12,720 bases of DNA from an uncultured Actinomycetes bacterium (GTDB taxonomy: Bacteria; Actinomycetota; Acidimicrobiia; Acidimicrobiales; RAAP-2), in assembly GCA_903830745.1 (NCBI GenBank), contig CAIKVF010000137.1, positions 1 to 12,720 of the forward strand, read 5' to 3'. The notes under the pieces were generated by a model. It was not told where the DNA came from. It searched no databases and saw only the letters and a program-made list of their open reading frames with translations. The position numbers and the translations under genes are program-made. Below are positions 2,828-12,720 of the stretch, one piece after another. Positions within the stretch are counted from its first letter, which is position 1. Each line of letters begins with the position of its first letter.

Positions 2828-4339
2828 CTACTTACTGGGGTCAGTAATTTCTAAGGCCAAGAGTGGTGCAGAAGCTTTATTGATGCACTCTTGATATTCG
2901 AGTTCTGGCACTGAATCTGCAACAACGCCACCGCCAGCTTGGACAGTTGCTGTTCCATTGCGCAGCGAAAGTGTTCGAATCGTGATTGCGAAGTCTGCTT
3001 CACCATTGAGAGAGAAGTAGCCAAGTGCTCCGCCATAGGGACCACGGTGCACCGGCTCAAATTCATCAATAAGTTCCATTGCCCTAACTTTTGGAGCTCC
3101 GGTCAATGTTCCAGCGGGGAAGGTGGCATTGAATGCGTCAAAGGCATCTTTGCCTTCGGCGAGCTTTCCGCTGACCTGTGAAACTAGATGCATTAAATGT
3201 GAGAAGCGTTCTACGTGTGCGAGTCGGTCAACCTTTACTGTTCCAGGTGCAGCAACGCGTCCAATGTCGTTTCTTCCGAGATCTACAAGCATTACGTGCT
3301 CTGAGATTTCCTTTTCGTCGTTAAGCATTTCCTGTTCGATTGCAAGGTCTTGCTTTTCGTCGGCCCCACGTGGGCGAGTGCCTGCAATTGGGTGAGTGAT
3401 TACCTGTCCTTCGTGCACTCGCACCAACATCTCAGGTGATGCGCCAACGATTTGGCTGTCGCCAGTGTCGAGCAAGTACATGTATGGAGATGGGTTGAGC
3501 GACCTAAGTACGCGGTACAGAGTGAGTGGATTAACAGTTGTTGGTCGCTTGAACTGCTGGCTTGGAACAACTTGAAATACATCACCTGCGTAAATGTATT
3601 TCTTGGCTCGCTCCACAACACTGCAGTATTGCTCTTTAGTGAAGTTGGAGAAACTAGCTGCGAGCGTCTTGATGTCAATGGCTGCACGCGCACTTGGTGC
3701 GGTGGCGACCAGGCGTTCAGTTGCGGGGTCATTCGCGGGCGAGGGTCCAACGAGCACTTCAATGATCTCTTGCAGCTGTGATGTGGCGAGATTGAATGCA
3801 TCCTTAGGATCAGTGCCATCTTCAACGAGTGCGTTCACCACCACTGTTGTTGAGTGACTCAAGTGGTCACAAATGAGCACTGCGCCCGGAAACGAGAAGT
3901 CAATGTCTGGCCACATGCCGTCGACGTCTTGGCGAGGAAGGCGCTCTAGGCGTCGAACATAGTCATAGGTAACGAAACCAACGGCCCCACCAAAGAATGA
4001 AGGTAGTTCGGTTGGGATGTACGTTTTGTATCGTGACATGAGTTCACGCAGCACTTCAAGTGGTCCGCGCTCAGCTGCGTTTGCAACGTCAGCACCAGTG
4101 ACGACAGTTTTTCCGTTGAGCGTTGTTACTCGCCATTTTCGGTCAAGACCAATGAACGAGTAACGGCCAGTGTCCTTACCTAGGGCAGCGCTTTCGAGCA
4201 AGAAGATTGATCGGCTGTTAGCGAAACGTTGATAGAGCGAGACCGGGGTTTCGCGGTCAAGCTGCAGCGTGGCGTGAAGAGGTATGACGTTGTAGTTACT
4301 TGCTAAGGCTAAAAAATCGCTTAGTTCAGTTGTCGCCAT
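2828..4339 (-). CDS. trpE: Anthranilate synthase component I
   Basis: 503 residues. It converts chorismate plus ammonia (channelled from TrpG) to anthranilate, the first step of tryptophan synthesis, in the cytoplasm. The N-terminal domain carries LLES (47-50) and the later NPSPYM (282-287), which in the family form the tryptophan feedback pocket, so allosteric inhibition is expected. The chorismate-binding domain is complete: HPIAGTRPRG (316-325), EKEISEH (342-348), DLGRNDIGR (353-361), FPAGTLTGAPK (407-417), GGGVVADS (469-476) and E483. This distinguishes it from a truncated PabB-like protein, and the full N-terminal pocket argues against PabB. ATG 4339 sits 6 nt after TATTCT with no Shine-Dalgarno, suggesting a leaderless mRNA. 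Its partner trpG is transcribed divergently 43 bp away, which is less usual than a trpEG operon. Confidence 0.96.
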   Translation of the reverse strand: MATTELSDFLALASNYNVIPLHATLQLDRETPVSLYQRFANSRSIFLLESAALGKDTGRYSFIGLDRKWRVTTLNGKTVVTGADVANAAERGPLEVLRELMSRYKTYIPTELPSFFGGAVGFVTYDYVRRLERLPRQDVDGMWPDIDFSFPGAVLICDHLSHSTTVVVNALVEDGTDPKDAFNLATSQLQEIIEVLVGPSPANDPATERLVATAPSARAAIDIKTLAASFSNFTKEQYCSVVERAKKYIYAGDVFQVVPSQQFKRPTTVNPLTLYRVLRSLNPSPYMYLLDTGDSQIVGASPEMLVRVHEGQVITHPIAGTRPRGADEKQDLAIEQEMLNDEKEISEHVMLVDLGRNDIGRVAAPGTVKVDRLAHVERFSHLMHLVSQVSGKLAEGKDAFDAFNATFPAGTLTGAPKVRAMELIDEFEPVHRGPYGGALGYFSLNGEADFAITIRTLSLRNGTATVQAGGGVVADSVPELEYQECINKASAPLLALEITDPSK

Positions 4340-4351
4340 CTAGAAAGAATA
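4340..4351 (-). promoter_or_regulatory. -10 element for leaderless trpE
   Basis: On the minus strand TATTCT (4351 down to 4346) is followed by TTCTAG and ATG, a six-base gap that would place the transcript 5' end on the start codon. No Shine-Dalgarno lies upstream. A leaderless mRNA leaves no room for a trp leader-peptide attenuator or riboswitch. Confidence 0.6.
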
Positions 4352-4370
4352 CTTAAGTTCAAGAGGCATC

Positions 4371-4382
4371 TAGGATGCATGC
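4371..4382 (+). promoter_or_regulatory. -10 element for leaderless trpG
   Basis: TAGGAT (4371-4376), six bases (GCATGC), then ATG 4383. This mirrors the trpE arrangement 19 bp away on the other strand. The region where a -35 would be expected (about 4348-4353) overlaps the trpE -10. A 10-bp palindrome, ATGCATGCAT (4375-4384), covers the predicted start point. Confidence 0.6.
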
Positions 4383-5048
4383 ATGGCGAAGAGCCCCTCA
4401 ATCCTGGTTGTCGATAACTACGACTCTTTCGTGTACAACATTGTCCAGTATCTGGGCGAACTTGGGGCGAATGTCCAAGTGCTCAGAAATGATGAAGTGT
4501 CAGCTGGTGACCTCAAAGCAATGAATCTCGATGGGGTCCTCATTTCCCCTGGGCCAGGACACCCGAGTGATGCAGGTAACTGCATTGAAATTATTAACTA
4601 CTGCGCCGAAAACAATCTCGAACTGTTTGGTGTTTGTTTAGGTCATCAAGCACTCGCTGAAGCCTTCGGGGGCGTTGTTTCTTCTGCCCCTGAGCTTGTG
4701 CATGGCAGGTCGTCTCTCGTTACTCATGACAACACTGGCGTTTTCGCCGGCGCACCTAATCCAATGATTGCTGGTAGGTATCACTCACTCGTGGTGCAAG
4801 ACGCAACACTGCCTGACGTATTTGAAGTCACTGCACGAACTGGCGATCTCATTATGGGAATGCGTCACAAGACAGCCCCTCTCGAAGGTGTTCAGTTCCA
4901 CCCAGAATCAGTGCTCACTGAAAGTGGCTACTTGTTACTGGCTAATTGGCTAGAGCGCTGTGGTGCAAGTGATGCAGTTGCAAAGTCGGTTGCGCTCAAC
5001 AAAATCAGCGCAGTGACACGCCAAGCGTTACCGCATCCTGTTTCTTAG
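4383..5048 (+). CDS. trpG: Anthranilate synthase component II (glutamine amidotransferase)
   Basis: A 221-residue class I glutamine amidotransferase that supplies ammonia from glutamine to TrpE. Motifs: DNYDSFVYN (11-19), SPGPGHP (55-61, oxyanion region), nucleophile C85 in GVCLGHQ, and H173/E175 in QFHPES, so the catalytic triad is intact. In many actinobacteria a single such protein serves both anthranilate synthase and aminodeoxychorismate synthase (PabA). Its position next to trpE favours the tryptophan role without excluding the other. The ATG has no Shine-Dalgarno but lies 6 nt after TAGGAT, consistent with a leaderless transcript. The TAG stop overlaps the convergent S51 hydrolase stop by 4 bp. 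The C-terminal stretch after about residue 195 is beyond the conserved domain. Confidence 0.95.
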   Translation: MAKSPSILVVDNYDSFVYNIVQYLGELGANVQVLRNDEVSAGDLKAMNLDGVLISPGPGHPSDAGNCIEIINYCAENNLELFGVCLGHQALAEAFGGVVSSAPELVHGRSSLVTHDNTGVFAGAPNPMIAGRYHSLVVQDATLPDVFEVTARTGDLIMGMRHKTAPLEGVQFHPESVLTESGYLLLANWLERCGASDAVAKSVALNKISAVTRQALPHPVS

Positions 5049-10399: not shown

Positions 10400-11329
10400 C
10401 TATTGCAGAGATTTTGGAGTGTCGACGTAGACACCTGAAGGAGTATTTGGATTTGACCTAGTTACTTCATGGAGCATTGCTTCAACGGCGCGTACTGGCG
10501 CAGAGGGGAAGCCGAATCGTCTTGATACAAGGATTACTCGTCGCTGCGACATGTCAGAAATTGGAATAGCTCTAAAGCTTTCACGTAAAAACTTTGAAAG
10601 CATTGTGATTGGAAGAATCGATGGACCGTAACCATCAAATGTCATTGACGCAATAGTTCTAATTCCGTCCAGTTCAACTATTGGTTTAAGTTGCACGCCA
10701 GCAATTCGACACGCATCATCAATTTCTTTTCGAATAGGCGTTCCTGACAATGGAAGCAGTAGCTCGTGCTGAGAGAGCTCTTTGAGCGTGATTGCTCCTT
10801 TTTGAGCTGCAAGTGGATGGGTGTGGTGCGCAATGACAGCGAGGTCTTCGCTATACAGGTCGAAGTCCTTAAGTTCTGGAGCACTAGCGGGCCAACCCAA
10901 AACTGCCATGTCAATTGTTCCATCAACAACTCGTGGTTCGAGCGTTGAGTTTGTGCCTTCGGTGATTCGAAGAGCAATGTGTGGGTAATCACGACGCTGG
11001 GCTTCGAGGAGTAGTGGCACTACCCATCGACCTGCTGTTCCGATCATGCCTAGGGAAACTTGCCCTCGGACATCTTTTGTGAGCTCAGAAACGTCTGAAG
11101 TAATGGCATTCACTTCAACAACAACTCGGCGAGAGCGCTCGCTAACTATTTTTCCTGACTCAGTTAGCTTTCCGCTGGATCGATCAACTAGTTCAGTACC
11201 AAGTTCAGCTTCGAGTTTCGCAATTCTTGACGAGATGTTCGACTGAACTGTTCCGAGAGCGGCGGCGGCGTCAGAGAAGCTTCCATGGTCTGAAATTGCT
11301 AAAAGGGCTTCAAGTTGGCGAATCTCCAT
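10400..11329 (-). CDS. LysR-type transcriptional regulator
   Basis: 309 residues from ATG 11329. The N-terminal winged helix-turn-helix begins MEIRQLEALLAISDHGSFSD and includes AAALGTVQSNISSRIAKLE. A linker helix precedes the effector-binding domain, which starts about residue 90 (RGQVSLGMIGTAGRWVVP). The effector is unknown. The upstream in-frame ATG at 11359 is rejected: MEIRQLEAL is the usual LysR start, and ATG 11329 lies exactly 6 nt after a perfect TATAAT, implying a leaderless mRNA whose transcript would exclude the earlier Met. A LysR-type inverted repeat covers that -10. It is the first gene of a five-gene same-strand run with gaps of 7, 9, 8 and -4 bases, so unlike most LysR genes it is co-transcribed with its neighbours rather than divergent from its target. 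Confidence 0.93.
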   Translation of the reverse strand: MEIRQLEALLAISDHGSFSDAAAALGTVQSNISSRIAKLEAELGTELVDRSSGKLTESGKIVSERSRRVVVEVNAITSDVSELTKDVRGQVSLGMIGTAGRWVVPLLLEAQRRDYPHIALRITEGTNSTLEPRVVDGTIDMAVLGWPASAPELKDFDLYSEDLAVIAHHTHPLAAQKGAITLKELSQHELLLPLSGTPIRKEIDDACRIAGVQLKPIVELDGIRTIASMTFDGYGPSILPITMLSKFLRESFRAIPISDMSQRRVILVSRRFGFPSAPVRAVEAMLHEVTRSNPNTPSGVYVDTPKSLQ

Positions 11330-11341: not shown

Positions 11342-11347
11342 CAGATA
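11331..11347. promoter_or_regulatory. LysR-type operator (T-N11-A, ATC-N9-GAT) overlapping the lysR -10 box
   Basis: TATCT (11331-11335), seven bases, AGATA (11343-11347) is a 5-bp perfect inverted repeat containing ATC-N9-GAT, the general LysR-family box. It completely covers the minus-strand TATAAT (11341 down to 11336) that sits 6 nt before ATG 11329. Binding there should block RNA polymerase, so negative autoregulation of lysR and the genes behind it is predicted. Confidence 0.6.
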
Positions 11348-11368
11348 GTAAGTATTCATCTAATCAAC

Positions 11369-11402
11369 TTGCGTGATACTTGGTCAATCGGCATACTTAT
11401 AT
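11369..11402 (+). promoter_or_regulatory. Possible promoter of the 6C-like small RNA
   Basis: TTGCGT (11369-11374) is 17 bases from CATACT (11392-11397), within an AT-rich CATACTTATAT block. This would start transcription near 11404-11407, at the base of the first hairpin. The match to consensus is partial (TTG of the -35; four of six in the -10), so the exact position is uncertain. Confidence 0.35.
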
Positions 11403-11403
11403 C

Positions 11404-11491
11404 AACGCGTTTTGCCAGAAGCCCCCCTGATGGCAAGGCGCAGGTTTTTGCAGAAGGACCAGCCTCCCCCCGGCTGGTCCTTTTGTGTTTT
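11404..11491 (+). ncRNA. 6C-like small RNA (two hairpins with C6 loops)
   Basis: Hairpin 1: GCGTTTTGCCA (11407-11417) pairs with TGGCAAGGCGC (11431-11441), 11 bp including two G-U pairs, around a 13-base loop holding CCCCCC (11422-11427). Hairpin 2: AAGGACCAGCC (11454-11464) pairs with GGCTGGTCCTT (11472-11482) around TCCCCCC (C6 at 11466-11471), followed by a T-rich tail. Two stem-loops each displaying six cytosines are the definition of the actinobacterial 6C RNA family, whose mycobacterial member is reported to pair with G-rich mRNA regions through these loops. No plausible protein is encoded here. It lies between lysR (divergent) and murT (same strand) and ends about 23 bases before the murT start. 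The structure is seen directly; the family name is from memory and needs a covariance-model check. Confidence 0.85.
11454..11491 (+). terminator. Intrinsic terminator (second hairpin of the 6C-like RNA)
   Basis: An 11-bp perfect stem, with nine pairs of GGACCAGCC/GGCTGGTCC at its core, and a 7-base loop is followed by TTTTGTGTTTT. It is the only clear hairpin-plus-T-tract in the window. It ends the small RNA just before murT, so murT needs its own promoter. Confidence 0.85.
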
Positions 11492-11500
11492 CAGGGTTGT

Positions 11501-11513
11501 TAGCGTTAGGGCA
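11501..11513 (+). promoter_or_regulatory. Possible -10 element for murT
   Basis: TAGCGT (11501-11506) is followed by seven bases and ATG 11514, one base more than the other leaderless starts here. AGGG two bases before ATG is too close to be a good ribosome site. It lies just after the small-RNA terminator. Confidence 0.35.
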
Positions 11514-12720
11514 ATGAGTAATCGCCTTTCACTTCGCGGATTTCTGGCGCTCAGCACCCTTCGCACGGTTAACTCACTTTCTAGGGCAACCGGACGGGGC
11601 TCTGGGACTGTTGCTGGCGGGCGAGCTGGACTCGCGATCTACCCGAAGCTTCTAAATGATTTGAGCAAGAACCGACAGATCATTCTTGTAAGTGGGACAA
11701 ACGGCAAAACCACCACAACAGCTCTCTGCGTGGCTGGATGGGGGGACAAAGTCTGTTCAAACGCAACCGGTGCCAACATGCCAGCAGGTCACGTCGCTGC
11801 GCTCAGCGGATCTAGTTCACCTCATGTTGTATTAGAAACTGATGAAGCATGGCTCCCTGTTGTTCTTGAGGCAACGAATCCACGTGTTGTTGTTTTGTTA
11901 AACCTTTCAAGAGATCAACTCGACCGCGCTACAGAAGTTCGCTCAATCGCTGAACGATGGCGCAGTGCACTCTCTAAAACAGCACATGACCTTGTGGTTG
12001 TTGCGAATGCAAATGATCCTCTTGTTGTCTACGCAAGTGAGTCAGCTAAAAACATCCGCTGGTGTGACATTGAAACGCCATGGACATCTGACGCAGTCTC
12101 ATGTCCAAAATGCACACAGTCAATAGTTAGAACATCAGATTCTTGGTCTTGTGTGTGTGGATTTACTAAACCAGGTTGTGTTGCAAGCGTTAGTGGCAAC
12201 GAAGTTCGCATTGGTGACGAAACAGTGCAGACCTCTCTCAGCATTCCGGGTCAGTTCAATGTTGGTAATGCCGCAATGGCGGCTACGGCGCTTGACGTGT
12301 TGAACATTGGTCCCTCAAAGTCACTTACGAGTATGAAGTCGGTCACTGGAATAGCCGGAAGATTTACGGTGCGCACATGGCAGGGAAGAAAAATTCACAT
12401 GCTGCTCGCAAAAAACCCAGCAGGATTTGATGCGCTTCTTGAATCACTCAGCCCAGGAACTGATGACGTCTGGATTGCCATCAATGCTCGCATTGCAGAT
12501 GGGAAAGATCCTTCGTGGCTCTACGACGTTTCATTTGAGCAACTGCAAGGCCGAAAAGTTTGGTGTCTAGGAGAACGCAGACTCGATCTTGCGACACGAC
12601 TTGATTATGCGAATGTCACGTACGAGGTTGTAAATGACTTGAACTCGCTTCCAAAGACATCAGACACGACTGAACTTCTTGCGAACTACACAGCCTTTAG
12701 TGACTGGATGCAGAGGACAA
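11514..12720 (+). CDS. murT: Lipid II isoglutaminyl synthase subunit MurT; 3' end outside window
   Basis: 402 codons are visible and the frame is still open at the window edge; the family is usually a little over 400 residues, so it should end soon after. With the amidotransferase GatD, MurT amidates the D-Glu of lipid II stem peptides to D-iGln. N-terminal TGRGSGTVAGGRAGLAIYPKLL is the MurT signature. The Mur-ligase P-loop is SGTNGKTTTT, and ETDEAW and LLNLSRDQLDR follow. A four-Cys zinc ribbon (CPKC...CVCG) is inserted in the middle domain, as in characterised MurT. SIPGQFNVGNAAMAATAL lines the ATP site. The C-terminal DUF1727 region is present (NPAGFDALLES, INARIADGKDPSWLYDV), with NYTAF near the visible end. 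gatD is expected immediately downstream. ATG 11514 follows a possible -10 by 7 nt. Confidence 0.95.
   Translation, partial: MSNRLSLRGFLALSTLRTVNSLSRATGRGSGTVAGGRAGLAIYPKLLNDLSKNRQIILVSGTNGKTTTTALCVAGWGDKVCSNATGANMPAGHVAALSGSSSPHVVLETDEAWLPVVLEATNPRVVVLLNLSRDQLDRATEVRSIAERWRSALSKTAHDLVVVANANDPLVVYASESAKNIRWCDIETPWTSDAVSCPKCTQSIVRTSDSWSCVCGFTKPGCVASVSGNEVRIGDETVQTSLSIPGQFNVGNAAMAATALDVLNIGPSKSLTSMKSVTGIAGRFTVRTWQGRKIHMLLAKNPAGFDALLESLSPGTDDVWIAINARIADGKDPSWLYDVSFEQLQGRKVWCLGERRLDLATRLDYANVTYEVVNDLNSLPKTSDTTELLANYTAFSDWMQRT

Follow-up and report, generated by a model that had tools for sequence, protein, structure and literature searches.

What lies between lysR and murT in the genome of an uncultured actinobacterium of the order Acidimicrobiales, and with which of its neighbours does it belong? 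The DNA considered here, referred to as the window, is the whole stretch of 12,720 nucleotides at positions 1 to 12,720 of contig CAIKVF010000137.1 (assembly GCA_903830745.1), and a first-pass annotation of its letters had placed in this gap a small RNA (sRNA) with the architecture of the actinobacterial 6C family. In the sections of the literature consulted, the 6C RNA of Corynebacterium glutamicum is described as a transcript roughly 100 nt long (PMC4046766), the level of which about doubles under mitomycin C (cited in PMC6789036), and mycobacterial 6C is placed by a survey close to the Ms1 RNA (PMC9569102). For the M. abscessus RNA, B11/6C, the excerpted account is that either loop represses eccB4 via a G6 tract and that compensatory changes restore this repression, hence base-pairing (PMC10470900).

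Two hairpins with cytosine loops

Hairpin 1 (11407–11441, plus strand) is built from arms at 11407–11417 and 11431–11441 and exposes six cytosines at 11422–11427, while hairpin 2 (11450–11486, plus strand) has arms at 11450–11464 and 11472–11486 around six cytosines at 11466–11471. The annotation had given each stem 11 bp; the fold agrees for stem 1, which includes two G-U pairs, and extends stem 2 to 15 bp in the MFE structure, again with two G-U pairs. A U-rich tail directly 3′ of hairpin 2 bears out the suggestion that this element is an intrinsic terminator. The MFE of 11395–11500 is −47.5 kcal/mol, whereas dinucleotide shuffles average −30.45 (sd 3.32) and none of them (0/200) is as low (z −5.14). 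At Rfam gathering scores the window yields two tRNAs only. Upstream on the plus strand are a −35-like TTGCGT (11369–11374) and, 17 nt after it, a −10-like CATACT (11392–11397), which would together form a promoter; given these boxes, their 17-nt spacer and the terminator, the sRNA gene is predicted to run from about 11404 to about 11492 on the plus strand. In the genus profile TTG is retained in the first box and CATA(C) in the second.

A BLASTN search with 11395–11500 (E≤1) hit 72 of 100 relatives; many of the weak hits are due to chance. The record titles of the window's close relatives read Acidimicrobiaceae, Acidimicrobiales or actinobacterium, and some MAGs are titled Acidobacteria. Forty-one same-genus loci were aligned with MAFFT, without fitting to a structure (alignment A1), omitting one locus cut at a contig end (L018), two diverged second copies (L036 and L038) and two loci with no such hairpin (L045 and L046). 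Over the 25 pairs, 92.5% of the cells in A1 are paired, against a shuffled mean of 83.0, 16 of the 25 pairs have changed on both sides (10.0 in shuffles), and cells with changes on both sides number 108 (29.6 in shuffles); none of five covariation measures was reached in any of 500 shuffles, a comparison that ignores kinship. Sliding the structure along A1 drops the paired share to 31–48%. In helix 1 all pairs (10/10) show changes on both sides in relatives, and hairpin 2 is paired in 100% of cells across the 41 rows. Selection on structure, which the annotation had suggested from the two G-U wobbles of stem 1, is supported by this strong covariation, measured against both shuffles and slid structures.

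The loops are conserved as well. In loop 1 the longest C-run measures 5 in 4 of the 41 rows, 6 in 17 and 7 in 20; for loop 2 the corresponding rows number 1, 28 and 12, so that the claim of exactly six cytosines per loop holds for the window and becomes a run of 5–7 in relatives. The 6C architecture itself, two consecutive hairpins with 5–7 cytosines in both loops, is present in 41/41 rows. A mere terminator is ruled out, because hairpin 1 covaries by itself and the C-runs are kept in both loops. Judged from these alignments, the RNA gene is real, conserved and 6C-like, and its structure is under selection. An RNA model built from A1 (R1) matches the window at 11398–11499 and, at E≤0.01, 56 of the 61 genus genomes, G060 among them with a weak match (6e-4). 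The second copies in two genus genomes (L036, G028:C20; L038, G050:C38) keep the promoter-like boxes and the C6 terminator hairpin; their hairpin 1 is without a C-run, and no LysR lies beside them.

Spread through the order

Across the order, R1 matches 59 of 298 genomes at E≤0.1. A second model, R2, was made from an alignment of 53 matches (A4, which still includes one antisense part-match of L011), and matches 135 of the 298 at E≤0.01, some false matches included. On inspection, tandem C-loop hairpins are found in many families of the order, with a few matches false. Two matches (L074 and L075) were judged by eye to be ordinary terminators, L075 lying beside an apparent 5S rRNA, and two more (L131 and L133) were rejected when the detector found no C-loops in them; all four remain counted within the R1 or R2 tallies. 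In A4, which leans towards the model because it was fitted to it, both sides have changed in each of the 25 pairs. In the wider phylum, R2 matches 25 of 198 genomes at E≤0.01. Two C-loops were seen in none of the 11 R2 loci inspected outside the order (out of 14 loci, L227, L234 and L235 being covered by a LysR search only), and R2 is therefore untrustworthy there.

A divergent lysR gene as the partner of the RNA

The lysR gene (10400–11329, minus strand) is transcribed away from the RNA, and its product scores over the cut-off for the LysR HTH and substrate-binding domains; its start was set by comparison at the methionine of MEIRQLE, the open frame extending to 11359. A divergent lysR is present in all 46 genus loci with enough contig, at a near-constant 61–70 nt from the set RNA start. 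Outside the genus, a divergent LysR gene stands beside the RNA in 20 loci, and those of the encoded proteins that were aligned are 37–48% identical to that of the window. In nine of these 20 loci the distance is 62–77 nt and in the other 11 it is 105–132 nt, with an extra C-run between lysR and the RNA in 10 of the 11 (not in L062). In many R1 loci from outside the genus the flanking 1.5 kb or so on either side is free of LysR, so unlinked C-loop RNAs exist too. In one such place (L067, G322:C197) the detector finds four C-loop hairpins in a row with no LysR adjoining, and family f16 holds paired C-loop RNAs about 1.7 kb (L060 and L106, G075:C15) and 2.3 kb (L065 and L115, G164:C97) apart, with no LysR within the stretch examined.

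A search from the protein side was meant to break the circularity of finding LysR genes beside RNA matches. The profile used (A3, from 27 LysR proteins) was itself built from RNA-linked proteins and so favours linked hits, and the counts that follow are uncorrected for relatedness. In GTDB contigs A3 found 578 relatives; among the best 80 of the 578, many of which are from the same genus and overlap the source of R1, R1 matches lie upstream on the opposite strand in 78, and in 34 of the 36 in the subset L180–L215. One of the two misses (L182) has both hairpins by eye and the other (L202) has no C-loops. In whole genomes of the order A3 matches 239 of 298 at E≤1e-60, with one listed match each, up to seven candidates having been scored per genome. 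Upstream of the top 30 of these lysR genes R2 finds a match in 28, and the two remaining loci each have one C-loop hairpin by eye; 14 of the 30 were themselves in the alignment behind R2, which matches 14 of the remaining 16. A strict detector records at least two C-loop hairpins in 20 of the 30 loci and fewer in 10, compared with at least two in 2 of 1180 control windows from the same loci and at least one in 82. Among 40 lower-ranked hits, sampled at about every third position down the list, a model-free detector finds at least one C5-loop hairpin in 30, at least two in 16 and none in 10. LysR-linked loci carry one C-loop hairpin (L303 and L307) to three (L064, L070, L293, L300 and L301).

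Judged by gene order, then, the stable partner of the RNA is the divergent lysR and not murT, an association that is new here, and the RNA very probably belongs to a LysR-sRNA module found through much of the Acidimicrobiales. In the portions of the open-licence literature searched, neither the LysR link nor a 6C-type RNA in Acidimicrobiales was found, and in the one text there that joins 6C RNA with LysR, the synthetase LysRS is meant.

The shared upstream region

Between the two genes lies a palindrome, GAT-N7-ATC (11344–11356), which in the window has one mismatch (GAT-N7-ATT) and which we take to be of the LysR-type class; it is a candidate binding site. The exact form is present in 62 of 66 upstream regions (43/46 in the genus and 19/20 elsewhere), compared with means of 0.78 of 46 and 0.31 of 20 in mononucleotide shuffles. 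It recurs exactly in 28 of the 40 lower-ranked LysR hits, and there it tracks the RNA: a C-loop hairpin accompanies it in 27 of these 28, against 3 of the 12 hits without it (Fisher p 7e-6, kinship ignored). Three hits without the RNA (L334, L339 and L348) retain, by eye, a decayed version of the region.

LysR-type regulators often control their own genes from such sites, and this palindrome is closer to the start of lysR than to that of the RNA. The sRNA could thus be real and LysR still control only its own gene, the palindrome serving autoregulation and the pair being kept together by shared promoter space. We consider this unlikely, given that the palindrome goes with C-loop hairpins in the counts above, and that a conserved TTG...GAT downstream of it also overlaps the −35 region of the RNA. 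On the reading we prefer, the LysR protein would bind the palindrome and the sequence overlapping the −35 box, and would so switch the sRNA in response to a small molecule. GcvA switches the divergent GcvB and OxyR the divergent OxyS in this manner, each pair likewise consisting of an sRNA gene and a divergent gene for a LysR-type regulator; those systems belong to another phylum and their RNAs to another architecture, whereas here the RNA has C-loop hairpins and its regulation by LysR is a prediction.

Downstream neighbours

On the other side, murT (11514–12720, plus strand, running off the window) has MurT_C and Mur_ligase_M domains over the cut-off. It is close downstream, and in the same direction, in most genus loci, and hairpin 2 is a terminator; Rfam, moreover, types 6C as Cis-reg. 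These points would suit a cis-regulatory leader or attenuator of murT. We nevertheless find that reading most improbable, since murT is 231–435 nt away in L002, L029, L031 and L035, a different gene comes next in most LysR-linked loci outside the close genus set (see below), and a TAGCGT box near murT (11501–11506, plus strand; seen no more than 90 nt downstream in 41 of the 49 genus loci inspected) suggests a leaderless promoter of its own, of which it would be the −10 box. The preferred reading remains a free-standing RNA, with murT as a neighbour that we would place outside the module.

The first-pass annotation had wondered whether this neighbourhood was lineage-specific. That is so for murT, which is directly downstream in most genus loci and not in most other LysR-linked ones; the divergent lysR, by contrast, recurs across many families of the order. 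Among 66 LysR-linked loci from beyond the close genus set, 41 have a co-directional HAD-IB gene as the next one downstream, the 66 being the 20 divergent-LysR loci outside the genus, L180–L215 and ten further loci, with the caveats that some of L180–L215 may be of the genus, that L058 and L192 are on one contig and that L202 is without the RNA. The three LysR-linked HAD-IB proteins examined are of type TIGR01490 fused to an acyltransferase. In the window, no HAD-IB gene is found in the immediate surroundings. Elsewhere in the window, at 2828–5048, a trpE match (minus strand) and a trpG/pabA match (plus strand) stand head to head and not in one operon.

Relation to 6C and other RNAs

Under relaxed thresholds, the Rfam 6C model (RF01066) aligns end to end over 11406–11484 at 19.8 bits, and its cut-off is 47; in the source genome it has no match at E≤0.001. 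Formal membership of the 6C family, checked with this model, is therefore unsupported, and on the test made the RNA is 6C-like and not a member of RF01066. Scores above the cut-off are reached by this model in one of the 298 order genomes and in 8 of 198 genomes from the phylum. Canonical 6C (B11) shares with the present RNA two consecutive C-loop hairpins, the second a terminator, and an actinomycetotal host. The LysR-linked loci differ in their divergent LysR, their palindrome and a C-loop hairpin number of one to three, and no LysR was found beside any of the 12 RF01066 loci tested. One sub-threshold RF01066 match (L083) has three C-loop hairpins by the detector. In L077 an Ms1 RNA (229.4 bits) is found near an RF01066 6C, as in mycobacteria, and in L084 a weak, sub-threshold Ms1 match (26 bits, cut-off 162) is similarly placed. 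Four C-loop loci of family f54 (L116, L119, L120 and L125) score 30.7–46.2 bits with RF01066 and resemble canonical 6C more closely than the window does; they have no LysR in the stretch examined, though their genomes do have a LysR match.

Whether the RNA is a direct descendant of canonical 6C, an orthologue that drifted below the cut-off and was then tied to LysR, is a matter on which we are evenly divided; this would be compatible with our explanation of function and differs from it only on descent. The two-hairpin C-loop plan is the same, and RF01066 spans the RNA end to end; some LysR-linked loci score higher (L055 with 41.0 bits and L098 with 34.1). In the reverse direction, R1, searched against the fetched loci only, aligns full-length to canonical L077 (22.7 bits) and L084 (23.4 bits). 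A HAD-IB gene also adjoins 12 of the 19 RF01066 loci taken at E≤0.01, some of which score below the cut-off; both proteins examined there are TIGR01490, and they are 35–38% identical over the aligned part to those of LysR-linked loci. This shared neighbour hints at common descent, a hint made weaker because orientation and domain build differ: the gene is divergent and upstream in the canonical loci, and co-directional, downstream and, in the three proteins examined, acyltransferase-fused in the LysR-linked ones. Against descent there are also the score below the gathering cut-off, the lack of LysR beside the RF01066 loci tested, the chance-level score of R1 on canonical L081 (12.6 bits), and the five of 198 phylum genomes (G435, G474, G504, G513 and G534) in which R2 and RF01066 match at different places. 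The C-loop plan itself could stem from convergence.

Among other families, the one that scores best on the window stretch without reaching its threshold is ar14 (RF02344), whose 24.9 bits fall far short of a cut-off of 58.8 and which is alphaproteobacterial according to Rfam, unlike the RNA here. CcsR1 (RF02791, cut-off 65.3) matched only L084, and weakly. Both share hairpins that expose C-rich, anti-Shine-Dalgarno-like loops.

Predicted action and targets

We think it probable that the locus encodes a free-standing, trans-acting sRNA of about 89 nt with a dedicated LysR-type regulator, whose C-loops pair with G-rich ribosome-binding sites. That lysR adjoins the RNA in many relatives suggests what switches the RNA on or off. 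Transcription, LysR binding and the targets of the sRNA are what we infer from sequence, and antisense action like that of mycobacterial B11/6C is what we infer by analogy.

A small search looked for G6-N(2-12)-ATG. In the source genome this pattern occurs in 10 places versus 6 in a reversed control, a weak excess, and in four relatives 46, 51, 72 and 24 times versus 26, 44, 54 and 18 in controls; ordinary ribosome-binding sites could account for such an excess. Four of the 10 places start a frame of more than 100 amino acids (L247, L249, L250 and L253), and by eye L247 resembles a Rieske-type protein, L250 a conjugation-type ATPase and L253 a solute-binding protein. Only L253 was followed to relatives, and it was rejected as a conserved target: 4 of 61 genomes match, the source among them, and L286 and L287 carry GGGGAG and not G6 at the corresponding place. 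Within this search of the source genome and relatives, no conserved mRNA target was found.

This outcome, and the repetition of similar C-loop hairpins in each RNA, recall sponge RNAs of the CsrB type, which carry repeated similar hairpins. That the C-loops bind a protein, with no pairing to mRNAs, seems to us very unlikely all the same, as B11/6C, with the same kind of loop, represses eccB4 by base-pairing confirmed with compensatory changes, according to the excerpted account (PMC10470900). For the pairing mechanism that we favour, G-rich stretches at ribosome-binding sites would be the partners of the exposed C-runs, and the pairing would block translation, as the same excerpts describe for B11/6C (PMC10470900).

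Conclusions

The balance tips slightly towards the view that the Acidimicrobiales possess a module absent from the literature searched, in which a LysR-type regulator, with one match per genome, is paired with a divergent sRNA of one to three similar C-loop hairpins. Current Rfam misses nearly all such genes in the order, RF01066 finding one of 298 genomes where R2 finds 135, some of the latter being false. If the proposal is correct, a dedicated LysR protein would sense the signal that governs a 6C-type RNA, and that signal would be the effector of the protein. A LysR partner that is conserved and has a readable site would offer a direct handle on the control of 6C-type RNAs. The variable number of C-loop hairpins would furthermore be a natural experiment on loop dosage, and evolution could, if the proposal is true, adjust the dose of anti-Shine-Dalgarno loops through their number in each transcript.
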